From NCBI RefSeq assembly GCF_000686945.1, contig NZ_JMME01000006.1, positions 62,001-126,000 on the forward strand: a stretch of DNA of 64,000 nucleotides, written 5' to 3'. Made by a program: the position numbers and the translations under genes. Below, in pieces: positions 46,872 through 62,801 of this stretch (position 1 is its first letter; every line of letters begins with the position of its first letter). A model generated the notes under the pieces. The model searched no databases and was not told the DNA's origin. It worked only from the letters and a program-made list of their open reading frames with translations. Origin of the DNA: Selenomonas sp. AE3005. GTDB taxonomy: Bacteria; Bacillota; Negativicutes; Selenomonadales; Selenomonadaceae.

Positions 46872-47043
46872 CGAGGCAGGATAATAATGCACGGTTGGCG
46901 AAGTCTTTTTACCAAATGCGCCGTAAAGCCCCTGCCTTTAGGCATGGGGATATAAGGCGCGTCCACCGAATTTGCGTAAGCAATTGAAGGTGGACAGTGT
47001 AGCTTGCTAATTGTAAAATAGACTTGTAAGGTGGTGATTGCAG

Positions 47044-48147
47044 GTGAGAACCTATCGCTTTAAGCTGTATAATTCAAAAAGAAACAGGAAACTCCATAGA
47101 CAAATCAATGTGGCAGGCCTTGTCTACAATCATTGTATTGCTCTGCATAAAAGATACTATAGGCTGTTTGGCAAGTCGCTGAATATGTACCAATTGCAGA
47201 AGCATTTAACCAAATTGAAAAAGATTTCTAGATTTGCGTATATAAAAGAAATAGGTTCCCAAGCAGTACAGGATATAACTCAACGGATAGATAGAGCGTA
47301 TAAATTATTTTTCCGCAACTTAAAACATAAAATCCGTACTGCGCCGCCAGCCTTCAAAAAGATAAGGAAATACAAGTCCTTCACTTTGAAACAGGCTGGT
47401 TGGAAACTCAATGAAGCCGACAGTAGTATCGTAATCGGCAAGCAACGCTATCGTTATGCAAAGTCAAGAGAAATAGACGGTAGGGTAAAAGTCCTCACTG
47501 TCAAACGGGATGCATTGGGCGATATATATTTGTATTTCGTCTGTGAGACATCAGAAAATAAAGTCTTAACAAGAACAGGTAAAAGTGTCGGTTTTGACTT
47601 TGGTCTGAAAATGTTTCTTAATGCCTCGGACGGCAAGGATATTGCTTCCCCTCTATTCTTCAAGCAAAATGCCAATTCTATAAAAAGAGCAAGCAGAAAT
47701 CTGTCCCGCAAAGCTAAAGGCTCCAATAATCGCAAGAAGGCAAAACTTGCCATAGCAAGATTGCATAGGAAGATAGCCAACCAAAGAGATAATTTTCACT
47801 GGCAGGCAGCCAACAAACTCGTTGGAGAATATGCTCTGATATGCCTTGAAGATTTAAATCTAAAGGCTATGCAAAAACGTTTCGGAAGAAAAATATCTGA
47901 TTTAGGATTTGCTGATTTTGTGAACAAGCTGAAATATATGGCACAAAGAACAGGTACATCTGTTGTAGAAATAGATAGATTTTTTCCTTCAAGTCAGCTA
48001 TGTTCAGAATGCGGTTATCAGAACACGGAAACAAAAAATCTAAAAATCAGAGAGTGGATTTGTCCCAAGTGTGGGAGTATGCACGATAGGGACAGAAACG
48101 CTTCGATAAATATAGAACGCGAGGGAAACAGAAAATTCTTCGCATAG
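47044..48147 (+). CDS. tnpB: TnpB RNA-guided nuclease (OrfB family)
   Basis: A 367-residue TnpB, full length. The N-terminal OrfB helix-turn-helix region starts RTYRFKLYNSKRNRKLHRQI. The RuvC-like nuclease triad is intact: Asp in SVGFDFGLKMFL (about residue 185), Glu in LICLEDLNLKAM (about 270), Asp in MHDRDRNASINIE (about 348). A zinc finger (CSECG and CPKCG, about 320-342) precedes the last Asp. GTG 47044 is 9 bases after AAGGTGG; TTG 47038 is an alternative. Known TnpB proteins cut DNA guided by an RNA from the element's right end. The composition is richer in A/T and Lys than neighbours, consistent with transfer. Confidence 0.93.
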   Translation: MRTYRFKLYNSKRNRKLHRQINVAGLVYNHCIALHKRYYRLFGKSLNMYQLQKHLTKLKKISRFAYIKEIGSQAVQDITQRIDRAYKLFFRNLKHKIRTAPPAFKKIRKYKSFTLKQAGWKLNEADSSIVIGKQRYRYAKSREIDGRVKVLTVKRDALGDIYLYFVCETSENKVLTRTGKSVGFDFGLKMFLNASDGKDIASPLFFKQNANSIKRASRNLSRKAKGSNNRKKAKLAIARLHRKIANQRDNFHWQAANKLVGEYALICLEDLNLKAMQKRFGRKISDLGFADFVNKLKYMAQRTGTSVVEIDRFFPSSQLCSECGYQNTETKNLKIREWICPKCGSMHDRDRNASINIEREGNRKFFA

Positions 48148-49223: not shown

Positions 49224-51824
49224 TTAATCCCGACGGATAAAGTCGGAGATACTTTTTCTTACGGGTTTGTCTGTGGCTGCAGCTGACGCCTGGCTTTGGC
49301 CGATGGCCTCAGCGAGCCCTGGGATATGCTTGTTGGGTTCGGCGTGGTGCATGGGAGCGGCGTCAGCGGCGTTGATGGTGGACAGCGTGGGCACACCATG
49401 TACGGCGCTGGGGACAGGTGCAGGAGCAGGGGCCTCAGCCGGCGGTACAGCGGCAGCTGGTGTGGCTCCGGACTCAGTCCCGGCCGTAGTGGCTGACAGG
49501 GAGGGCGTGATGGGAACATCACGGCTGGTCAGCTGTACTTCCAGAGTATCGCCGTTTTTCACCGGGTCGGTGAAGTCCACGGGAATACCGTTGACCAAAA
49601 TGGTGAAGGTCACGCGGCTGGTAGCGGCTGGCGGCTGGAAGTTGACTGCCAGCAGGGCGTCACTGACCGTGGTGGCCACCCGGGCGGAGGTGTGATAGGT
49701 GATATCACAGCCATCGTCAATAATGGTGCCCGGGCTGGCGGTGCGGCCGTTGACCATCAGCTCTACATTGGCAGACGGGATAGCAAATTCCTTGCCTTCG
49801 TAGTAAATCATGACGGAGGTATCGGCATTTTTGATGTTCAAAATATCGCCCAGTTTCGGGTCATCGTCAGCGATGTATTCCACATGGTCCCCCTCGTGGA
49901 TAGGCATGGAAATACTGGCTGGCAGGTCGTTGAGCAAAATTTCCGGCGTGCAGCTGTATACGGTTTCCGAACCGTTCAGAGTGTAGTGAATCTTGCGGCC
50001 GGTGGGCGGATAGCCTGCGGCCAGCAGCGCCTCGCCCAGACTCTTGAATTCCCGGCTTTCAATCACATCGCCATCAGCCAGCAGCTGGTCGGCGTCAGCC
50101 TCTTTGCCGTTGACGGTCACGCGCTGACGGATATGTTTTTCGCGGCCGTTGATGTAAATGGTGTATTCCTGTCCGGCAGTGACCAAATCACCCAGGCGTA
50201 CGGTGGGGGTGGTGCCGTTTTCACCGGGAATGACGGTGATACGGGCACCGTCCCTGATGACAGTATCAAGGTCAGCCTCTTCGTCCCCGAGCATGATTTT
50301 GGCAAAGGTGCCCATGGTGCCGGGGAAGAATTTCTTTTCCGTGCCGATATTGACCATCAGGCCCAGGCCGGGGTGGCCGTTATACTTGCGCATGTTGATA
50401 CCGGCGTTCAGGAGCGCGTCAGAGACGGTGAGCTCGCGGAAATTAAACAGGCTGTATTCTTCGTCATTGACATAGACGGAGAGAAAGTGCAGGGTGTTGA
50501 GCGAGGCAATTTTCAGTATGCCTAAGGGTGTTACGGCGTCAGGCAAATGCAGTTCATCGGGAATGTCAGTAATGCCGTTGACTACATCCGGCTTGCGGAC
50601 GGCAACTCTGTTTTCCGGCATACCCATAGCATCGGCGACAAATTTTGCCAGTCCCGGCGTCTGGGAACCGCCGCCTACGAGCATAACGGCCTGCGGCGTA
50701 TCGCCGTTCAGTTCAAAAATCTGTTTGGCGATGGCGTTGGCCAAGTTTTCGATATTGGGCATAACGGGGTCCAGTATTTCCCGGGCGGTAAGATGGTACT
50801 CGGTGCCTAAAATATCGGTGAAGGTGACATCTTCGCCGTTGGCAGCCTGCCGTTTGATTTGTTCTGCGATATTGAAGTCCAGCAGGAAACGCTGGCTGAT
50901 GGCCTCGGTTACTTCGTCACCGGCCAGGGGCACCATGCCGTAGGCAATGACAGAACCGTTTTTGGTGATGGCCACGTCGGAGGTGCCGGCGCCGATATCC
51001 ACGAGCACCAGATTGAGATGGCGCATGGTCGGCGGAATCAGCACGTTGATGGCGGCAATCGGCTCCAAAGTCAGAGCGCGCATTTCCAAATTGGTAGCAT
51101 GGAGCGCTGACTGCATGGAGTCAATGACCTGCCGGGGCAGGAAGGTGGCAATGACCACGGCCTTGGCTTTTTTGCCGCGCTGGCCAATCAGCATTTTCAG
51201 CTGAATATCGTCCAGAACGTAACGTATGGTGCTGTAGCCAACGCAGTAATAGCGGCTGGGGTCATCGACAGTGTGGCTTTCGGCCAAAGCGGTCTGCGCC
51301 GCCTGTACGCCGGCAAAATCCAAATTGCGCTGCTGTTCAGCTGTGATGAGGCCGTTTACTTCCATTTCGGCCTCGGCGGTCATGGTGTAGAGGGCACGGC
51401 CGGCGGCAGCAACAGCGGCCGTTTTGATGGGGCCGGTCTTTTCAATCAGGGCATTTTTTACCTTTTCGACGATGGCTGCTACCTGCGGGACATCGTGAAT
51501 TTGTCCGTCGAGCATGGCTCTGGTCTTATGTTCAAGTCTGTTAGTGGCGATGACGTGCAGGTTCTCGTCGTCACCTTCCTCGGCCACGATACCGATAACA
51601 CTGCGCGTGCCAATATCCAGGGCAAAAATGCGCTCGTGTTGTTTGACTGCTTTGGGCGGCGGTGTTTTGATGACGTTGATGGCCTCCACCACTTCCGGGC
51701 TGAGTTCTTCCTCGACAGGAACCTCGACAGGCTTGGCTTTTTTTGTGGTGCGAGTGGTTTTCTTAGGGGCGGCGGTTTTGGCAGCGCCGTCTATATCTGC
51801 TGTAGTTTTCTTTACTGTTGGCAT
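49224..51824 (-). CDS. Very large FtsA/PilM-like actin-fold protein
   Basis: An 866-residue cytoplasmic protein. Residues 1-60 are Lys/Thr/Pro-rich; about 65-445 form an FtsA-like actin ATPase (RIFALDIGTRSVIGIVAEE phosphate loop, a 1C/SHS2-like segment, LVLVDIGAGTSDVAITKNG, VMLVGGGSQTPGLAKFVAD). The following 320 residues contain at least three similar beta-rich units (TVRLGDLVTAGQEYTIYING, SLGEALLAAGYPP, TVSDALLAVNFQPPA) suggestive of ubiquitin-like or SLBB folds. The last 90 are Ala/Pro-rich and end KSISDFIRRD. FtsA itself is about 420 residues and ends in a membrane helix; none is evident here. No ftsZ is nearby. AAGGAG is 7 bases before the ATG. Function unknown. Confidence 0.75.
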   Translation of the reverse strand: MPTVKKTTADIDGAAKTAAPKKTTRTTKKAKPVEVPVEEELSPEVVEAINVIKTPPPKAVKQHERIFALDIGTRSVIGIVAEEGDDENLHVIATNRLEHKTRAMLDGQIHDVPQVAAIVEKVKNALIEKTGPIKTAAVAAAGRALYTMTAEAEMEVNGLITAEQQRNLDFAGVQAAQTALAESHTVDDPSRYYCVGYSTIRYVLDDIQLKMLIGQRGKKAKAVVIATFLPRQVIDSMQSALHATNLEMRALTLEPIAAINVLIPPTMRHLNLVLVDIGAGTSDVAITKNGSVIAYGMVPLAGDEVTEAISQRFLLDFNIAEQIKRQAANGEDVTFTDILGTEYHLTAREILDPVMPNIENLANAIAKQIFELNGDTPQAVMLVGGGSQTPGLAKFVADAMGMPENRVAVRKPDVVNGITDIPDELHLPDAVTPLGILKIASLNTLHFLSVYVNDEEYSLFNFRELTVSDALLNAGINMRKYNGHPGLGLMVNIGTEKKFFPGTMGTFAKIMLGDEEADLDTVIRDGARITVIPGENGTTPTVRLGDLVTAGQEYTIYINGREKHIRQRVTVNGKEADADQLLADGDVIESREFKSLGEALLAAGYPPTGRKIHYTLNGSETVYSCTPEILLNDLPASISMPIHEGDHVEYIADDDPKLGDILNIKNADTSVMIYYEGKEFAIPSANVELMVNGRTASPGTIIDDGCDITYHTSARVATTVSDALLAVNFQPPAATSRVTFTILVNGIPVDFTDPVKNGDTLEVQLTSRDVPITPSLSATTAGTESGATPAAAVPPAEAPAPAPVPSAVHGVPTLSTINAADAAPMHHAEPNKHIPGLAEAIGQSQASAAATDKPVRKSISDFIRRD

Positions 51825-53383: not shown

Positions 53384-56300
53384 ATGGATTTGCAAGTGAA
53401 AAAAATTTTGGCAGTGTCTGAAGGCGAGAAGTATGTTTATGATACTTCTGAGACATGGGTGGATTTATTTCAGAAACAGGCAGAGAAATATCCTGATAGA
53501 CTGGCCGTGGCTGATGAAAACGGCAGCATGACATATAGGGAATTGGATGAAGTATCCGACCGCGTGGCAGCGTATCTCCTGGAGAAGGGACTAAAAGAGA
53601 ATACCTTTGTGGCTATCCGCATGGGGCGGTCCAAGGAATTTATTGCGGCGGCACTGGGCGTGCACAAGGCAGGCGGCGCTTATGTACCGCTGGACTTGGA
53701 ATATCCTGCCGGCCGCGTGACCTACATGATGGAAGATTCCGAGGCAAAACTTGTCATAACGGAAAATTTCGTAAGGGAGGCCACAGGAAAGGGCTTACCG
53801 CTTGGCAAGCATGATTATAAGCTGTCGCCGGAAGGCCTGGCTTATATGATTTATACCTCCGGCTCCACGGGAAAGCCCAAGGGGGTAATGATACAGCACA
53901 AGGCGCTCTTAAACTTTGTCCACTTCATTCGGGAGCGTTGGCAGCTGACGGAAAAGAGCCGGATTGCCTGCCATTCGAACTTTGCTTTTGATGCCTCAGT
54001 GGAGGATTTGTATCCTGCGCTTACGGCTGGCGGTTGTGTTTATATCGTCCCGGAAGAGGCCCGGCGTGATATCTTTGAAATGAAAAAATTCATCGAAAAG
54101 CACGGCATTACCGGCGGCTGCTATACCACCCGTTTCGGCCAGATGCTGGCCGGGGATGAGCCGCTGAATGTGGACTACATCGTGCTGGGTGGCGAGGCCA
54201 TGACGAGCACCGTCAAAGCGCGCGGTGCGGTCTATAATACCTATGGCCCCACGGAATTTACGGTGGATGCTACGTATTTTGAACTGGAGAAGGGGAAGGA
54301 ATATAATCCCATCCCCATTGGCCGTCCACTTTACAACTGCGCGGCGTTTATTCTGGGAGAAAAACAGGAACTGCTGCCACTGGGGGAAGTGGGTGAACTC
54401 TGCCTGTCCGGCCCGCAGCTGGCCAAAGGGTATTGGAAACGGCCGGAACTTACGGCGGAGAAGTTCATTGAGATTAAGATAGCAGATGATGATGTGCGGC
54501 GCGTTTATCGCACGGGCGATTTGGCCCGTTACAATGAGGACGGGCAGCTGGAATTCTTTGGACGCATAGACTTTCAGGTGAAACTGCGCGGATTTCGCAT
54601 TGAACTCGGGGAAGTGGAGAGCGCGGCCCTGAAATATCCGGGCATTATGCAGGTGGCGGCCGAAGTAAAGCACGATACTCTTTGCCTTTACTACACGGCT
54701 GACAAGGATATCGACGAACAGGCCTGGAAGTCTGCCATGGAAGAAAGCCTTACGGATTACATGATTCCCGGCTGTTTCGTCCGGCTTGATAAAATGCCGG
54801 AAACGCCTAATGGCAAACTGGACCGTAAAGCGCTGCCGGAGCCGGTTATGGAGCGTGATGTAGAGTACGTTGCGCCGCGCAATGAACTGGAGCAGGCGAT
54901 AGCCGACTGCATGAAGAAGGCTTTGGAACGGGATGTGAAGATTGGCGCTCTGGACAATTTCTTTGAGATTGGCGGCGACTCCATCAAGGCTATCCGTATG
55001 GTCAGTTTCCTGCGGGCACAGGGAATCCTGCTGAAGGCTAATGATGTGCTGAAACACCGCGTGGTGGAAAAGATTGCCCAGTTTGCCAGATATGGCGCTG
55101 CAGAAGTACAGGCAAGCCAGGAGCCGATAGAAGGTTTGGTGGAGGACAGCGGCATTTTCCTCTTCTACAAGGACCTTGACTACCCGGACAGTGCTTATTT
55201 CAATCAGTCCACCCTGCTGGAATGGAAGGGCAGGGCCGATTTTACGGCCTTGCAGGCGGCCTTTGATGGCATCACCTTCCAGCATGATATGCTGCGCAGT
55301 AGGTTTGAGCAGGGGCATCTCTTTGTAAAGGCCGCAGCTGCCGGTGAACATGGGGTGACACTGGAAGAATATACACTGCCTGATGAGACAGACAAGATAA
55401 AGGAACTCTGCGAGGATATCCAGTCCCATCTGGCGGTGGACAAAGCCTTGGTGCGGGCGGCGCTCCTGCATGCAGGCGCAAGGGACCTTTTCTTCATTAC
55501 GGCGCACCATACCATTGTGGACGGCATTTCCTGGCGTATTTTGCTGGAGGATTTGGAGACGGCCTATGGTCAGGTTTTGGCCAAGGAACCCGTTAAGCTG
55601 CCGGAAAAGACGCATACCTATCAGGACTATGCGCAGGCCATGAAAGAGTACCGGGACAGCTATGCCCTGTCGCTGGAGATTCCATATTGGCAGGAAACGG
55701 TCCGCAAGGTTCTGGCTATGGAGACCTCCAAGGGGAAGGACTATAGCCGTCATTTTGCGCAGCTTACCGTTTCTCTGGACAAGCCCGGGACAGACAAACT
55801 GCTCGCGGCCAAACTTTCTGCCTATCAGCTGGAGATTAACGACCTGTTGCTGACGGCTGTCGGCAGAAGTTACCGGCAGACCTTTGGCAAGGACTCCCTG
55901 TCCCTGCAGCTGGAAGGTCATGGCCGTGAATACATTGGCAAGGAACTATTGACCGACCGCACCATTGGCTGGTTTACTTCCATCTTTCCGGTCGTGTTGG
56001 AAAAGCTGAATGGAGAGGCGCAGCATGATCTCATACGGGTGAAGGAGACGCTGCACCGTATTCCGAACAAGGGTGTCGGCTATAATGTCCTCGCCTTTGT
56101 GGAGGGACAGCATAAGCTCGCTTGGGAAAAGAATCTCATTCCGAAAATGGTGTTCAACTATCTGGGCGATGTGGCAGGTGCTGAGGACAACAGAAAGTAT
56201 TTTGCCCCGGACAGCAAGGATGGTTTTTCCACGGGGCTGGACTATCAAGCGGTGAAGAATTGTGACGGCCCGGATTTGGCGGTCAACTGTCTGATTGACG

Positions 56301-59300
56301 GAGGACGGTTTGCCCTCTATTTGGACTACAATACGGGTCTTTACGATGAGAAAACAGCACAGGCCTTTGCACAGGGGATTCTGGGCGAGATTGGGGCGCT
56401 GACAGCGCATTTGGACGGTGTTCGTGAACCTGTGGCCACGGCCTCGGATTTAGGGGAAACTTCTTGGAGCGAGGAAGAATTCAACGCTGTTGTTGCTGAA
56501 TTCGCGGCAAGAGGGGAACATATCGAGCGGATTTATCCGCTGACGCCGCTGCAGGAAGGAATGCTCCTTTCCCATGTCATGGACCCCCATGATTCGGCTT
56601 ACCGACTGGTGGATATCTATGCCCTGAACTTCCTGCCCACGGAAAAAGAACTTCGCCTGGCATTGGATGCACTGGCCGTTAAGCATGAAGTCCTGCGCAC
56701 GGCCATCATTCATGAAGGGGTAGCGGTACATCGTCAGGCCATCACGGACAGGAAACCCGGCCTTTCGCTGGTGGATATCAGCAAAGAGCAGGACAACTTT
56801 GCTGTCGCGAACAGGATACGGGAGAAAATGCTTAGAGAGGGCTTTGACCTGCAGAGAAGGCCGTTGTTCCAGATTATCTGCGCCAAGACCTCGGAGAATA
56901 CTGCCTGCCTGATTACGGCTGTTCATCATATTATCGTTGATGGCTGGTGTGTGGGCACATATCTGAAAGACTTTGAGCATTTCCTGCAGATGGCAAGGGA
57001 AGGGATAACGCAGCCGGAGATTATGTCTGACAAGAATGGCCTTTATGAGGCCATGGTCAGGGAACTCATTGCCAAGGACAGGAAAGTTGCTGCAAGGTAC
57101 TTTGCTAATCTATTGGAAGGCTATGAAAATCAGGCGGAGATTCCTGCCTATGGCAGGATTGCCGAACATGAGCGCTATAAGGATAATAGGATTATCAGAC
57201 ATCTGGATGCCGGACTGATTGGGCAGTTTGAGCAGATGTGCCGCAATGCGGGCGCAACTCTATCCAGTGGTATGGAACTGGCCTGGGGCATGGTGTTGCA
57301 GACTGTCTGCCGTCTGGATGATGTGGTGTTTGGCAAGGTGGTTTCCGGTAGGGATAATACCTCCGCCGATGTGTCCGACCTGGTCGGCCTGTTCATCAAT
57401 ACGGTTCCTGTGCGGCTTAAGGCAGGCAAGGATTCTACCGCGGCAGAACTGTTGCAGAATCTTTATGAACAGTCCCTGGAGGGAAATCCGTTTGATTTCT
57501 GTCCGCTGGCTGATGTACAGAAAGCGATTGGCATGACTGATGGTCTGGTCTATTCCATTCTTTCCTTTGAGAACTACGGGGATGATGAGGAAGGTTTGTC
57601 CATGCTGAAGCCCATGCTCGTCAAAGAAGAGCATGTGGGCAGTTATGTCGGCATTGATGCAATGGCTTTGGCCGATGGCAGCATCGAGGTGATTCTGTCC
57701 TTCGACCCGCAGCGTTACCGCAAGATTGAGATGGAACGCATCTTCGCCCTTATGGAACATTACATTGCCTGCATGGTGGAGCAGCCGCAGCGTTCACTTC
57801 ATTCTCTGCCGCTGCTGGACAAAGAACAGGAAGCGGAGCTTATAGCTCTGTCCCAAGGGCCGACATATGTGTATGATATGTCCGAAACCTGGGTGGATAT
57901 GTTCCTCAAGCAGGTGAAAGAAAGACCGGAACATACGGCCGTTGTGGACAGCACAGGAAAGTATACCTACGGGGAATTGGAGCAGGTGTCCAACAGCATA
58001 GCAGCCTGGCTGCGGGAAAAGGGAACCAAAGAGGGCGACTTTGTAGCCCTGCGCATGGACCGTGTTAAGGAATTCCTGGCCGGTGTGATTGCCGTGGAAA
58101 AGCTGGGGGCAGCCTATGTGCCCATTGACCCGGCATATCCGGAGGACCGTATTGCTTACATGCTCGAGGACTCGGCTGCGCGGGCTGTTTTGACCGAAGA
58201 CGTGGTGGCGGAGGCCATAGCAAAATATCCAAAGGCAGAGTCGGTTAACCGCGCAGTGCCGCAGGGGCGCGCCTATATGATTTATACTTCCGGCTCCACG
58301 GGACGTCCCAAGGGAGTAGTGCAGAGTCACCGTTCCCTGCGTGCCTATGTGGAATGGCGGCTGGTTGATTTTGCTATCACGGAAAAGAGCGTTCATGCCG
58401 TGCATCCGAGTTTTTCCTTTGATGCATCTTTGGAGGATTTGCTCTGTCCCATCGCCGCCGGGGCTGAAATTCATATCCTGTCGGAGGAATTGCGCCGCAA
58501 TATGGAGGAGATGAAGGACTACATCATCGAGCATGGCATCGTCCAAGCCTCGTTTTCCACGCAGATGGGCATGGCTATGCTCAATCAGTATCCAGATTTG
58601 CCCATGCGTTATATGTTGATGGGCGGCGAAAAGATGCTGCCCTGCAGAAAGACGGATATCCAGATTGTCAATGGCTATGGCCCCACGGAATTCACCGTGT
58701 GTTCGTCCTATCACTGGGTAGACCAGGAAAAAGACATAGATATTCCCATCGGCCGTCCCGTGCCCAACACCTATTCCTTTATCTGTGACGCCTATGGTCA
58801 TCTGCTGCCCCAGGGAATGGCAGGCGAATTGTGTCTGGCTGGAAATCAGATTGCGGATGGCTACTGGAACAAGCCGGAAATCACCGCCAGAAGCTTTGTA
58901 CCCTGTCCTTGGCTGCAGGGGCAGAAAATGTACCGTACAGGCGATTTGGCCCGTTACAATGAAGACGGGGAACTGGAATATTTAGGCCGCATAGACCATC
59001 AGGTCAAACTGCGCGGCTTCCGCATAGAACTCGGTGAGATTGAGAACTGTGCCAGCCGGTACGATGGCATTGAGCAGGTGGCGGCAGCTGTGGTGAAGGA
59101 GCAGCTGGTCCTTTATTACACGCAGGCAGAGGGCACTAAGGTAGATGTAGAACAGTTTAAGCACTTCCTGTCCGGGACACTTACGGAATATATGGTGCCA
59201 ACCGTCTATATACCGCTTGAAGTCATGCCGCTGACGCCCAATGGCAAAATCAACCGCAAAATCCTGCCCGTGCCGGACTTGCAGGGCCAGCATGTTGCCT

Positions 59301-60778
59301 ATGAGGCACCGACCAACGAGATAGAGAAAAAACTCTGTGATGTCTTTGCCAAAGTCTTAGGCCTGGAAGAAAACAGTGTGGGCAGAAATGATGATTTCTA
59401 TCTTTTGGGCGGTGACTCCATAAAATCCATGCGGGTCATGGCAACGGCGGATATTGAGGGACTGAGTGCCAAGACCATCTTCAAGTGTAAGACAGCAAAG
59501 CGCATAGCGGCAGAACTTTCCGGACAAATGCTGGGGAATCTGCAGGCGTATGATGAAGAGGCGCGGAGCAAGGCTATCCCGGCAACGCTGGCGCAGATGC
59601 TGATGATTGATGACCAATTCATGGACGTACGTTCGCCCATGTATAATATTCCCGTATTCTATCGCCTGGAGGCAAAACTGGATGCAGAAAAGCTGGCCAA
59701 GGCGGTGGATGAGGCAGTAAGCCATCATCCTTCCTTAAACTCTGTGTTTACCATAGATATAGAGGGGGAAGGGGAAATCAGGCAGCATATAGAGCCGGGA
59801 ATTCTGCAGAAAACAACCGTTAAGGATGTCACAGAAGAGGAACTGGAACAACTGACGCAAACGTTGGTGCAGCCGTTCCGTATCTTCAATGCGCCGCTTT
59901 TCCGCTCGCAGATTTTCCGCTGCGGTGAAAAGTTATATCTTTTCATGGACGTACATCACATGGTGTCTGATGGCACTTCCCAGGGCGTATTGCTCGCAGA
60001 CATTGCCAAGGCTTACTGGGGAAAACCACTGGTACGCGATTACTATTACAGCTATCTGCGGCAGGAATGGGAGGCCCAGGGCACCAAGGAATTTGATGAG
60101 GCCAAGGCCTATTTCCAAAATCTCCTGGCCGGCCATGACTGGTGCAGGATTCCTACTCCGGATTTCGAGACATGGGAGACGGACTCGCATATAGAGGCAG
60201 AAGATGGCATCGTGACCGTCCAGCAGGTCGAGGCGGCGGAAAAACGCCGGGGCTACTCCCGCACCGTTTTGGCTATTACGGCAGCCATGCTCGCCTTGCA
60301 GGAATACTGTCATAAGGACGAAATCAATGTCGATTACCTCAACAGCAACCGTACGGAAAAATATTTGCAGAATACCGTGGGGCTCGTATTTAAGATGCTG
60401 CCTCTGGCTGTGGATTTGCAGCAATATTCTTCCCTGGAAATGCTGCTGCAGGAAGTGAACCGTCAGGTCATCGAGAGTTTTGCCAACAGTATTTGCGATT
60501 ATAGTGCCAAGGAAAACATCGCCGAAGAAGACGCCATCGTGGTCAATTACGTTGCCCAATTGGGTGATGCCTCCAATATGGAGGGCTTTGAACCGACGGA
60601 AGTTCCCTTGGCCGGTGTGGACGAATCCATGATGGGACATGCAGATCTCTATCTGCAGGAGAAAAAAGGCGAGGTCAATATCCATATCGAATATTTGGCC
60701 CATGCCTATGCTGAGGGCAGTATCCGGAAGTTCCTGGATATCTACATCAAGCATTTCAAACAGTTGGTAAATGGATAA
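53384..60778 (+). CDS. Two-module nonribosomal peptide synthetase (A-T-E-C-A-T-C)
   Basis: A 2464-residue synthetase. Domains: adenylation 1 (about residues 25-505; YMIYTSGSTGKPKG, NTYGPTEFTV, YRTGDLARYNEDG, TPNGKLDRKALPEP), carrier 1 (GGDSIK, Ser533), epimerization (about 585-1025; HHTIVDGISWRILLEDL, LEGHGRE, DRTIGWFTSIFPV, FNYLG), condensation (about 1045-1480; HHIIVDGW), adenylation 2 (about 1495-1960), carrier 2 (GGDSIK, Ser2012), and a terminal condensation-type domain (about 2062-2464; HHMVSDG). There is no starter condensation domain and no thioesterase or reductase. The product should begin with a D-residue joined to a second amino acid. Both adenylation domains start with similar sequence (YVYD.SETWVD), suggesting module duplication. 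GGAGG is 11 bases before the ATG. Confidence 0.93.
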   Translation: MDLQVKKILAVSEGEKYVYDTSETWVDLFQKQAEKYPDRLAVADENGSMTYRELDEVSDRVAAYLLEKGLKENTFVAIRMGRSKEFIAAALGVHKAGGAYVPLDLEYPAGRVTYMMEDSEAKLVITENFVREATGKGLPLGKHDYKLSPEGLAYMIYTSGSTGKPKGVMIQHKALLNFVHFIRERWQLTEKSRIACHSNFAFDASVEDLYPALTAGGCVYIVPEEARRDIFEMKKFIEKHGITGGCYTTRFGQMLAGDEPLNVDYIVLGGEAMTSTVKARGAVYNTYGPTEFTVDATYFELEKGKEYNPIPIGRPLYNCAAFILGEKQELLPLGEVGELCLSGPQLAKGYWKRPELTAEKFIEIKIADDDVRRVYRTGDLARYNEDGQLEFFGRIDFQVKLRGFRIELGEVESAALKYPGIMQVAAEVKHDTLCLYYTADKDIDEQAWKSAMEESLTDYMIPGCFVRLDKMPETPNGKLDRKALPEPVMERDVEYVAPRNELEQAIADCMKKALERDVKIGALDNFFEIGGDSIKAIRMVSFLRAQGILLKANDVLKHRVVEKIAQFARYGAAEVQASQEPIEGLVEDSGIFLFYKDLDYPDSAYFNQSTLLEWKGRADFTALQAAFDGITFQHDMLRSRFEQGHLFVKAAAAGEHGVTLEEYTLPDETDKIKELCEDIQSHLAVDKALVRAALLHAGARDLFFITAHHTIVDGISWRILLEDLETAYGQVLAKEPVKLPEKTHTYQDYAQAMKEYRDSYALSLEIPYWQETVRKVLAMETSKGKDYSRHFAQLTVSLDKPGTDKLLAAKLSAYQLEINDLLLTAVGRSYRQTFGKDSLSLQLEGHGREYIGKELLTDRTIGWFTSIFPVVLEKLNGEAQHDLIRVKETLHRIPNKGVGYNVLAFVEGQHKLAWEKNLIPKMVFNYLGDVAGAEDNRKYFAPDSKDGFSTGLDYQAVKNCDGPDLAVNCLIDGGRFALYLDYNTGLYDEKTAQAFAQGILGEIGALTAHLDGVREPVATASDLGETSWSEEEFNAVVAEFAARGEHIERIYPLTPLQEGMLLSHVMDPHDSAYRLVDIYALNFLPTEKELRLALDALAVKHEVLRTAIIHEGVAVHRQAITDRKPGLSLVDISKEQDNFAVANRIREKMLREGFDLQRRPLFQIICAKTSENTACLITAVHHIIVDGWCVGTYLKDFEHFLQMAREGITQPEIMSDKNGLYEAMVRELIAKDRKVAARYFANLLEGYENQAEIPAYGRIAEHERYKDNRIIRHLDAGLIGQFEQMCRNAGATLSSGMELAWGMVLQTVCRLDDVVFGKVVSGRDNTSADVSDLVGLFINTVPVRLKAGKDSTAAELLQNLYEQSLEGNPFDFCPLADVQKAIGMTDGLVYSILSFENYGDDEEGLSMLKPMLVKEEHVGSYVGIDAMALADGSIEVILSFDPQRYRKIEMERIFALMEHYIACMVEQPQRSLHSLPLLDKEQEAELIALSQGPTYVYDMSETWVDMFLKQVKERPEHTAVVDSTGKYTYGELEQVSNSIAAWLREKGTKEGDFVALRMDRVKEFLAGVIAVEKLGAAYVPIDPAYPEDRIAYMLEDSAARAVLTEDVVAEAIAKYPKAESVNRAVPQGRAYMIYTSGSTGRPKGVVQSHRSLRAYVEWRLVDFAITEKSVHAVHPSFSFDASLEDLLCPIAAGAEIHILSEELRRNMEEMKDYIIEHGIVQASFSTQMGMAMLNQYPDLPMRYMLMGGEKMLPCRKTDIQIVNGYGPTEFTVCSSYHWVDQEKDIDIPIGRPVPNTYSFICDAYGHLLPQGMAGELCLAGNQIADGYWNKPEITARSFVPCPWLQGQKMYRTGDLARYNEDGELEYLGRIDHQVKLRGFRIELGEIENCASRYDGIEQVAAAVVKEQLVLYYTQAEGTKVDVEQFKHFLSGTLTEYMVPTVYIPLEVMPLTPNGKINRKILPVPDLQGQHVAYEAPTNEIEKKLCDVFAKVLGLEENSVGRNDDFYLLGGDSIKSMRVMATADIEGLSAKTIFKCKTAKRIAAELSGQMLGNLQAYDEEARSKAIPATLAQMLMIDDQFMDVRSPMYNIPVFYRLEAKLDAEKLAKAVDEAVSHHPSLNSVFTIDIEGEGEIRQHIEPGILQKTTVKDVTEEELEQLTQTLVQPFRIFNAPLFRSQIFRCGEKLYLFMDVHHMVSDGTSQGVLLADIAKAYWGKPLVRDYYYSYLRQEWEAQGTKEFDEAKAYFQNLLAGHDWCRIPTPDFETWETDSHIEAEDGIVTVQQVEAAEKRRGYSRTVLAITAAMLALQEYCHKDEINVDYLNSNRTEKYLQNTVGLVFKMLPLAVDLQQYSSLEMLLQEVNRQVIESFANSICDYSAKENIAEEDAIVVNYVAQLGDASNMEGFEPTEVPLAGVDESMMGHADLYLQEKKGEVNIHIEYLAHAYAEGSIRKFLDIYIKHFKQLVNG

Positions 60779-60797
60779 TGTGAAAGGGGACCGCTGG

Positions 60798-62135
60798 ATG
60801 AAAATAGAGCTTTCCGAACATTTTACGTATAAAAAAATATTACTCTACAGCCTGCCGAATATCGGCACCATGCTGGCGATTACTTCGTTTCAGATGGCAG
60901 ATGGTTTTTTCGTGTCCAACTGGCTGGGGGTAAGCTCCTTTGCGGCTGTCAATCTGGTATTTCCCCTGCTGATGATGCTGGTGGCACCGGGTTTTATGAT
61001 TGGTGAGGGCGGCAGTGCCTTTATCTCCAAGCTCAAGGGCGAGGGCAATATAGAAAAAGCCCGGCAGTATTTTACGCTGCTGGTGGCGGTGATATTTATC
61101 TGGGGCGCTTTCTTTAGTACTTTGATGTATATCTTCCTGCCGGATATTGTCCGGCTGCTGGGGGCATCAGAAGAACTTGTGCCCTATTGTCTGCGCTATG
61201 GACGCATATTGTTTCTGTTTATTGCGCCGCTGCTCGTAACAACGTCCTTTCAAAGTTTGTGGGTTATGGCCGAGAAATCACAGACAGGTTTTTACCTTTC
61301 TGTGGTGCAGGGCGTGACGCATGTTATTTTTGACTGGCTGTTTATCGTCGTGCTGGCATATGAAATCGAGGGAGCGGCGACGGCAACCGGCTTGGCAACT
61401 GTCGTGAACACGATTATTACCTTGTGGTATTTCTCCCGTCCCAATGCCTCCGGACTGCATTTTGTGCGTTTCCGCTTTGACCTCTATCGGCTGGCGAAGA
61501 TTTGCTACAATGGCATATCCGAGATGGTTGATGCCGTTTCAGTCAATATCCTGGAGCTGGTATACAATCTGCAGCTCATGCTGCTGCTCGGGCAGTTAGG
61601 TGTAGCGGCTATCGGTGTGCACAGCTATGTCGGTGAGGTGTTTTTATCCGTTTTCTTTGCCCTCAATACGACAACGGTGACGGTAGTCGGGTATAAATAT
61701 GGTGCAGGGGATTTTGACGGCATAAGGGATTTGATGAAGAAAAACATCGTTTTAACGCTCGGCTTGGGTTTCATAATGACCGTTGTTGGTGTTTCTTTGG
61801 CCGATGAAATTGCCACCTTATATCTCGGCTACGACGCAGAGGCACATGCTTTTGCGACCAGAGCCCTTAGAATTTGCGCACTGGAATTTTTCCTGTACGG
61901 TTTTTGCCTTGTGACCTCGGGCTTTTTTACGGGGCTGGACCGCGGAACAATTTCGGCAGTCATTGCTGTCTGCCAGTCGCTTATTGCGCCGATTGTCTTT
62001 ATCTACTTGTTCCCGGTACTGTTCGGCGCAGATAACATCTGGTACGCTGCTCCGGCGGCTACAGTGGTAGGCGCTATTCTTGGCACGGCCTTCCTGATAA
62101 AGAAAATGCCGTTGCTCGGCACGGAAGAGGATTGA
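60798..62135 (+). CDS. MATE-family efflux transporter
   Basis: A 445-residue inner-membrane protein with about 12 hydrophobic segments in two MATE repeats (LYSLPNIGTMLAITSFQMAD and GISEMVDAVSVNILELVYNL begin each half). MATE proteins export organic cations or peptides with H+ or Na+. ATG 60798 is 7 bases after AAGGGGA and 20 bases after the synthetase stop; the ATG at 60771 overlaps the synthetase end and has no ribosome site. Its position between synthetase and transferase suggests that it exports the peptide. Confidence 0.92.
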   Translation: MKIELSEHFTYKKILLYSLPNIGTMLAITSFQMADGFFVSNWLGVSSFAAVNLVFPLLMMLVAPGFMIGEGGSAFISKLKGEGNIEKARQYFTLLVAVIFIWGAFFSTLMYIFLPDIVRLLGASEELVPYCLRYGRILFLFIAPLLVTTSFQSLWVMAEKSQTGFYLSVVQGVTHVIFDWLFIVVLAYEIEGAATATGLATVVNTIITLWYFSRPNASGLHFVRFRFDLYRLAKICYNGISEMVDAVSVNILELVYNLQLMLLLGQLGVAAIGVHSYVGEVFLSVFFALNTTTVTVVGYKYGAGDFDGIRDLMKKNIVLTLGLGFIMTVVGVSLADEIATLYLGYDAEAHAFATRALRICALEFFLYGFCLVTSGFFTGLDRGTISAVIAVCQSLIAPIVFIYLFPVLFGADNIWYAAPAATVVGAILGTAFLIKKMPLLGTEED

Positions 62136-62141
62136 TGACGT

Positions 62142-62801
62142 TTGGGTGAAGTGATTATTACGCTATTGCCGGTGGCCTGTCTGCGCACACATCTGTGGGA
62201 GGCTGAAAGACTTTTGCCGGCAGCGCGCTTTTCCAAGATGATGCGTTACCGGCAGGAGGCTGACAGGCTGCGGTGCTTTGCCTCCTCCCTGCTGCTGCCA
62301 AAAGCTGCCCAGGGCCGCAGTGTTTCTTATAATGAAGAGGGAAAACCTCTGGCGGAGGGGCTTTTCTTCAATCTGTCGCATAGTGGGGCGTATGCCGTAC
62401 TGGCCGAGGCAGACAGTCCTGTGGGCGTGGATATCGAGGAAATGGTGCCGCTGGGCGGCTGGGTACGGGAGGCGCTGACAAGTCAGGAATATGCCTGGAT
62501 GCTGCAGGGGGAAGATGAGACTGTATGCCAGGAACGGTTTTATCGCTTATGGACAAGGAAGGAAAGTCTGGTGAAATGCGAGGGACAAGGTTTTGCGTCA
62601 GCGCCCGGAGAAATCAGTACCCTGCCTGTGGCTGAAGAGCAGTTAACAGATTATCTGGGAAAGACGTATGGGATTGGCAGTCTTAACCTCGGTGGTTATA
62701 TGTTGTCGGCTGCCTTGCAGGGAAAGCAGCCGCGCCTTATAAGGCGTGACATTTCCTGGAAGGAAATCACCGGTGACAGTTGTTTGCTGCGCGAAGTTTA
62801 A
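62142..62801 (+). CDS. Sfp-type 4'-phosphopantetheinyl transferase
   Basis: A 219-residue enzyme that attaches phosphopantetheine from CoA to carrier-domain serines. The Sfp signatures are present: FFNLSHSGAYAVLAE, GVDIEEM (about residues 95-101) with the Mg-binding Asp and Glu, and RLWTRKESLVKCEGQG (about 132-147). It starts with TTG, 6 bases after the MATE stop, with GGAAGAGG about 10 bases upstream. It would activate Ser533 and Ser2012 of the adjacent synthetase. Confidence 0.94.
   Translation: MGEVIITLLPVACLRTHLWEAERLLPAARFSKMMRYRQEADRLRCFASSLLLPKAAQGRSVSYNEEGKPLAEGLFFNLSHSGAYAVLAEADSPVGVDIEEMVPLGGWVREALTSQEYAWMLQGEDETVCQERFYRLWTRKESLVKCEGQGFASAPGEISTLPVAEEQLTDYLGKTYGIGSLNLGGYMLSAALQGKQPRLIRRDISWKEITGDSCLLREV

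Follow-up and report, generated by a model that had tools for sequence, protein, structure and literature searches.

How does a non-ribosomal peptide synthetase (NRPS) that ends in a condensation (C) domain release its product? The question is raised by a gene in the window, a 64,000-nucleotide stretch of DNA from Selenomonas sp. AE3005, in which a single uninterrupted frame on the plus strand (53384..60778), with GGAGG 8 bases 5′ of its ATG, encodes an NRPS of 2,464 amino acids. In a Pfam search the protein matched Condensation three times, AMP-binding and PP-binding twice each, and AMP-binding_C, and no other model. The protein has the architecture A-T-E-C-A-T-C (A, adenylation; T, carrier; E, epimerisation), without a thioesterase or reductase domain, and the stop codon (60776-60778) comes directly after the last C domain. 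A sequence-only reading had described a two-module NRPS closing on a condensation domain without a thioesterase, which our analysis bears out, except that the epimerisation domain of module 1 was absent from that description.

All domains lie on the plus strand. Module 1 comprises A1 (residues 29-488, 53468..54847), the Pfam PP-binding carrier T1 (residues 504-567, 54893..55084) and the E domain (about residues 586-1010, 55139..56413), which has intact catalytic motifs (HHTIVDG, EGHGRE, GVGYN and FNYLGD) and falls in the E group of our tree (100/100). The internal C domain (residues 1048-1486, 56525..57841) carries HHIIVDG and is of the DCL type, again with 100/100 for the group. It is followed by A2 (about residues 1501-1965, 57884..59278) and T2 (about residues 1973-2050, 59300..59533, from Pfam and alignment), whose serine, correctly given beforehand as Ser2012, lies in LGGDSIK at 59417-59419. 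Asp235 is present in both A domains, and the nine specificity positions, read by alignment, are DAECVGTVD in A1 and DAESLGGVC in A2; for the placing of all these residues we took the PheA numbering to apply. To our eye both codes vaguely resemble those for basic amino acids, and we make no substrate claim from them. Searches of PDB sequences with A1 and A2 returned LgrA as the best matches and yielded no substrate assignment.

The terminal C domain occupies residues 2062-2464 (59567..60775), with HHMVSDG at residues 2191-2197 (59954-59974), in agreement with the motif expected near residue 2190. The start previously assigned to the feature, 59560, is out of frame, while residue 2062 is in frame from 59567; likewise, the length of about 450 residues holds when counted from Ser2012, the C domain itself having 403. 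Among PDB sequences it matches NRPS C domains, the best being the TycC PCP-C structure 2jgp (6.8e-26). An AlphaFold model built from 32 aligned sequences (pLDDT 90.3, pTM 0.87) has the same structure as its best Foldseek match (E 4.6e-28, among 50 of 852 matches listed). Hence this is a genuine and complete C domain, with a likeness to NRPS C domains far beyond chance, and it keeps HHxxxDG intact. The motif is also kept in 13 of 13 relatives that were retrieved without a motif pattern; the terminal domain is therefore not a remnant.

We placed the domain in a tree of 115 rows, made of 49 gut rows (reduced at 58% identity) and 66 references, and in a hand-picked subset of 58 rows that leaves out long or oddly placed rows, including L029_term (genome G008), L112, L106, the stand-alone C rows and L134 829. 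Both trees are without fungal CT domains, those of the rhabdopeptide/xenortide (RXP) type and other known amine-adding C domains. In each tree the terminal domains come together apart from the E, DCL, LCL and starter references, each set of which has a group of its own; the terminal group has bootstrap 100 and SH-aLRT 99 in the 58-row tree. Grouping of the window's terminal C domain and its two nearest kin with 15 LCL references was rejected (AU p 4.5e-141), as were DCL, starter and E groupings of the same three domains (AU p 5.1e-40, 1.0e-7 and 0.0025, respectively); the LCL test was set by the sequence-only reading and the other groups were named only after the first tree had been seen. An ordinary LCL, DCL, starter or E domain is thus rejected by the AU tests.

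The clade also has a signature in its residues. At residue 2219 all 84 terminal domains have Asp, where 33 LCL references have Leu (weighted 96%). Asp also stands at residue 2076 in 94%, and at residues 2114 and 2342 the Arg that belongs to the LCL pattern is replaced. Four protein-ending rows of the 115-row tree (L028_term, L125 5368, L134 829 and L029_term) stand outside the 28-row terminal clade, as do protein-ending E domains, and the first three, which belong to ordinary lines, sit in or beside LCL. Terminal position and clade membership are therefore not equivalent. A stand-alone C domain of 444 amino acids (L023:9602-10936, genome G030), with HHIIYDG and lying directly after a sodium:dicarboxylate symporter gene, joins the terminal clade in the 115-row tree.

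Downstream of the NRPS gene lie a MATE-family exporter (60771..62135, plus strand; Pfam MatE 147 bits, NCBIfam matE) and a 4′-phosphopantetheinyl transferase (PPTase) of the Sfp/AcpT-like kind with a TTG start (62142..62801, plus strand; Pfam ACPS 43.7 bits, cut-off 25). The longest MATE frame begins inside the end of the NRPS gene, and the start common to relatives (MKIELSEHF; protein of genome G011) is at 60798. The order of NRPS and then MATE is kept in the orthologues of three genomes, all with open frames; G010 and G011 are 96% identical over the terminal domain, and G023 is 51% identical over that domain and 61% over the whole protein. Elsewhere in the window we noted an 866-amino-acid FtsA/PilM-like ATPase (49224-51824, minus strand), whose C-terminal half contains ubiquitin-fold stretches resembling ThiS/TGS, and a transposon protein judged by eye to be TnpB-like (47038-48147).

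A search of the organism's own genome with Pfam Thioesterase (PF00975) gave two matches, neither over the cut-off, and a stand-alone thioesterase acting from elsewhere was set aside on this ground. In five relatives the same search gave one match each in four, of which one, on another contig of G011, exceeded the cut-off (29.3 bits, positions 43-107 of 226, in a 494-amino-acid frame); we read it as a general alpha/beta hydrolase. The sequence-only reading had counted LCL placement of residues 2062-2464, joined with a downstream module or stand-alone thioesterase, against its own proposal. LCL placement is rejected and the own genome has no thioesterase match above the cut-off, but a separate A-T-C protein is encoded 9.8 kb downstream of the NRPS gene, beyond the window (1,041 amino acids; L015:12618-17086, which is C5:132617-137085 of the own genome). 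A second MATE gene begins five bases after the stop of this A-T-C gene, and a NirJ1/NirJ2-like radical SAM pair (L015:10177-12369) precedes it.

This neighbour suggests a split line, in which the terminal C domain might hand the dipeptide over to a carrier in trans, that of the A-T-C protein, and the chain would then be ended by the terminal C domain of the A-T-C protein. Among 22 same-genus genomes, the three with the two-module gene all carry the A-T-C gene, which occurs in eight including the own genome (Fisher p 0.036, a value that ignores kinship), and at L046:3948-15726 the two genes stand together with one MATE gene between them. The same pairing is broken elsewhere, as in five of the eight genomes the A-T-C and MATE genes occur with no two-module gene. 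G010 has the two loci on one chromosome but distant from each other, with a MATE gene at each, and in G023 the only A-T-C proteins accompanying the two-module gene are distant ones, at 29-31% in their C domain. Furthermore, the ordinary protein-ending C domains L125 5368 and L134 829 stand with LCL in the 115-row tree, unlike the window's domain. Passage to the A-T-C protein is the strongest alternative within this cell, but an acceptor carrier in trans is weakened by these observations and we judge it improbable. The other carriers of the own genome, an AcpP-like protein (C4) and a 72-amino-acid protein (C7, in an unrelated cluster with free-standing A domains), were considered as partners and set aside, leaving only the A-T-C protein.

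Two of these loci have features of their own. At L046 the two-module NRPS is spread over three overlapping frames, and the adjoining A-T-C protein is 76% identical to that of the own genome. In G023, L024:1-12201 is a run of same-strand genes made up of a tandem pair of the A-T-C kind together with genes for a MATE protein, a STAS-APH kinase-like protein and an A-T protein.

To collect the wider family of the terminal domain, we aligned ten terminal C domains, scanned a set in which each species is represented by a single genome, and kept the best 80 of 246 matches; among these, loci L044, L045, L050, L053, L055, L056 and L057 repeat genomes of the same-genus set. The scan pattern contains 'HH', so HH in these terminal domains is partly selected, and the pattern-free check given above is separate. 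In 75 of the best 80 the matched domain is the last of its frame, although position was not a search criterion; the exceptions are L115 and L120-L123, two of them at a contig end. The 75 frames are 40 A-T-C, 29 A-T-C-A-T-C, 2 A-T-E-C-A-T-C, 2 T-C, 1 C and 1 A-C. The members of the clade come mostly from rumen and gut bacteria, most entries being metagenome bins, and their record titles name Selenomonas, Lachnospiraceae, Butyrivibrio and other Clostridia, Synergistaceae, Verrucomicrobia, Akkermansia, Lentisphaerae, Prevotellaceae and Chloroflexi.

The A domains of these proteins differ at a telling position. Asp235 of an A domain holds the alpha-amino group of the substrate, and an A domain that has lost it should therefore load an acid without an alpha-amine, as in acyl-amide synthesis. 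Among the 40 A-T-C frames within the best 80 of 246, Asp235 is absent in 25, where Val, Ile or Thr replaces it, present in 12 and without a call in 3; two of the 12 (L058 and L081) are broken two-module pieces and one (L102) is cut by a contig end, leaving nine that are clean. The A-T-C-A-T-C frames are more uniform: A1 is without Asp235 and A2 has it in all 29, the nine letters of A2 are an identical DVVTDGVMG in 28, and the terminal C domain keeps HHxxxDG in 29 of 29. Their internal C domains have exchanged the second His of the motif for Leu in 28 of the 29 (27 HL and 1 QL; L059-L117), with the Gly of the motif replaced by Ala in 9 of those 28 (for example L059:5126-11239), and L047 is the sole frame with an internal HH. 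The window NRPS, with its E domain and Asp235 in both A domains, is unlike these other two-module relatives, and its function may therefore have shifted.

Of the best 80 of 246 loci, 64 could be judged for a MATE gene at a distance of up to 1.5 kb, which is present in 45 and absent in 19, while 16 at contig ends were not judgeable; the chance expectation is about 0.012, from 11 MATE genes (22 half-domain matches) in 2.82 Mb. By kind, it is near 26 of 28 judgeable A-T-C-A-T-C frames, 8 of 9 A-T-C frames with Asp235 and 3 of 17 A-T-C frames without it. The link to MATE is therefore found mainly where an amino acid is the expected substrate of the last A domain. The low count for the A-T-C frames without Asp235 weighs against the reading favoured below; proteins of that kind may thus belong to a different pathway.

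The same release domain is common to one- and two-module proteins, so its chemistry must make sense for a single residue. A single-module A-T-C protein makes no dipeptide, which makes a diketopiperazine impossible, and hydrolysis would only return its substrate; both points therefore favour an external acceptor, and a side-chain lactam from a single amino acid such as ornithine is a further possibility. By descent, the terminal C domain of the window should likewise transfer its chain to a free acceptor. Of the two outcomes offered by the sequence-only reading, attachment to an external acceptor is thus the better supported, the clade being common to single-module A-T-C proteins, many of them without Asp235, while formation of a cyclodipeptide gains no support from the relatives, though a D-L dipeptide is expected here.

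Because module 1 carries an E domain, ring closure is nonetheless the strongest alternative for the NRPS itself. Two modules and an E domain would give a D-L dipeptide, which suits ring closure, and the terminal C domain could cyclise D-Xaa1-Xaa2 to a diketopiperazine as a bacterial counterpart of the fungal CT domain. Cyclising terminal C domains do exist in fungi, according to a review (PMC11546977). We consider such cyclisation unlikely here, given that the same clade serves single-module proteins and that no entry named TqaA appeared in the PDB sequence matches or in the 50 of 852 fold matches listed, from a library in which TqaA may itself be absent; within the same matches, sequence and fold comparison showed no preference for CT.

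Hydrolysis of the thioester to a linear dipeptide has a precedent among fungal terminal C domains in that of IvoA, which frees a D-amino acid in the account of the same review (PMC11546977), and the E domain of the window NRPS would make such a release productive. The single-module sisters without an E domain, however, would only waste ATP by it, and the retained HHxxxDG of the relatives found without a motif pattern argues against an idle remnant with chance hydrolysis. Whether by an active or an idle domain, we regard hydrolysis as quite improbable.

The reading that we favour, and hold to be probable from the sequence comparisons, is that the terminal C domain actively releases the chain by conjugation, passing the dipeptide to a free acceptor for export of the conjugate by the MATE protein. 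A1 would load amino acid 1 onto T1, where the E domain would convert it to the D form, and the DCL-type C domain would join D-Xaa1 to the second amino acid, carried by T2. With D-Xaa1-Xaa2-S-T2 as the donor of the terminal C domain, a freely diffusing nucleophile would then attack the thioester to give a dipeptidyl conjugate, to be exported by the MATE protein. Ordinary metabolism most likely supplies the acceptor, as a small amine or an amino acid, because the trio of NRPS, MATE and PPTase genes holds no gene for making one. Diamines are possible acceptors; the own genome has two matches over the cut-off to PF02784, of the diamine decarboxylase type, and such genes single out no acceptor.

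Terminal C domains that add a free amine are established. C13 of glidonin synthesis joins the chain to putrescine (PMC10587159), RXP synthetases release their chain onto a free amine (PMC9872161), and OaaC, from a preprint, is a free-acceptor C domain of gut bacteria that makes amides (PMC13142362). As in the RXP and glidonin types, the window's C domain stands directly after the last loaded carrier, with no working thioesterase needed, and has an intact HHxxxDG, a likeness of architecture and motif drawn outside the trees. The RXP enzymes are also small, with C at the end and no thioesterase, but their modules, as described there, start with C and often carry a methyltransferase (PMC9872161), whereas the window NRPS starts with A, has an E domain, adjoins MATE and PPTase genes and belongs to a Gram-negative-type Firmicute. 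Glidonin C13 releases its chain onto a free diamine, a role like the one proposed for the window's domain, and the second His of its HHxxxDG matters; it is followed by A*-T-TE (PMC10587159), while the window protein ends with C.

The OaaC type resembles the clade in its gut hosts and in its free small-amine acceptor, as proposed for the clade, and many members of the clade are expected to load acids that lack an alpha-amine. It is, however, described as a stand-alone C domain with separate A and ACP proteins and nearest to starter C domains (PMC13142362), whereas the window's C domain is fused and its starter grouping is rejected. The OaaC motif, (D/H)HxxxD followed mostly by Ser or Ala with Gly in 17% (PMC13142362), is a weak criterion for setting it apart from HHMVSDG of the window, which has Gly. 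Fungal CT domains likewise take the place of a thioesterase at the NRPS end, but are portrayed in the review as fungal and cyclising, with a blocked acceptor side (PMC11546977); they were compared by sequence and fold matches, outside the trees. Nearer in habitat, the rumen NRPSs mru0068-0069 and mru0351-0352 of Methanobrevibacter ruminantium adjoin a MatE exporter like the window locus, but they are described as ending in a thioesterase (a thioester reductase in one legend) (PMC2812497) and the window NRPS ends in C.

Other C domains of these genomes occur in regulatory settings. L016:9252-12562 (own genome, C4) and L029:8443-15455 (G008) encode a STAS domain fused to a C domain in which YHAIMDG replaces HHxxxDG, and the adjoining MATE protein has a histidine-kinase-like ATPase domain as its tail; from their sequences these appear to be NRPS parts fused to partner-switch regulators. 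For comparison, mru0068 has anti-sigma and MatE neighbours (PMC2812497). At L043:8106-10446 (own genome, C1) an RsbW-like frame of 147 amino acids follows a 622-amino-acid protein whose C domain is degenerate, matched by Pfam in two partial pieces, and whose tail looks by eye like a cyclic-nucleotide-binding domain.

Free-acceptor chemistry of terminal C domains is already known. Among the papers listed by searches of the open-licence PMC literature, none describes the gut clade. At roughly even confidence, we propose that one release-C clade in NRPSs of the rumen and gut conjugates a free small molecule with an amino acid or a dipeptide, or with an acyl or N-acyl-aminoacyl group if Asp235 is missing from the A domain, that a dedicated MATE exporter often goes with it, and that these enzymes make up an undescribed class. 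A survey of the rumen counted 5,346 NRPS clusters, with no products named for them in the sections available (PMC8241843). If our proposal is true, rumen and gut NRPSs that seem truncated for want of a thioesterase would be complete small conjugating enzymes, and their products would bear an added acceptor that a prediction expecting hydrolysis or ring closure would miss. Amides made by the free-acceptor C domain OaaC of gut bacteria can act on host receptors, according to the preprint (PMC13142362). The terminal-C clade would then provide a sequence mark by which such enzymes can be found.
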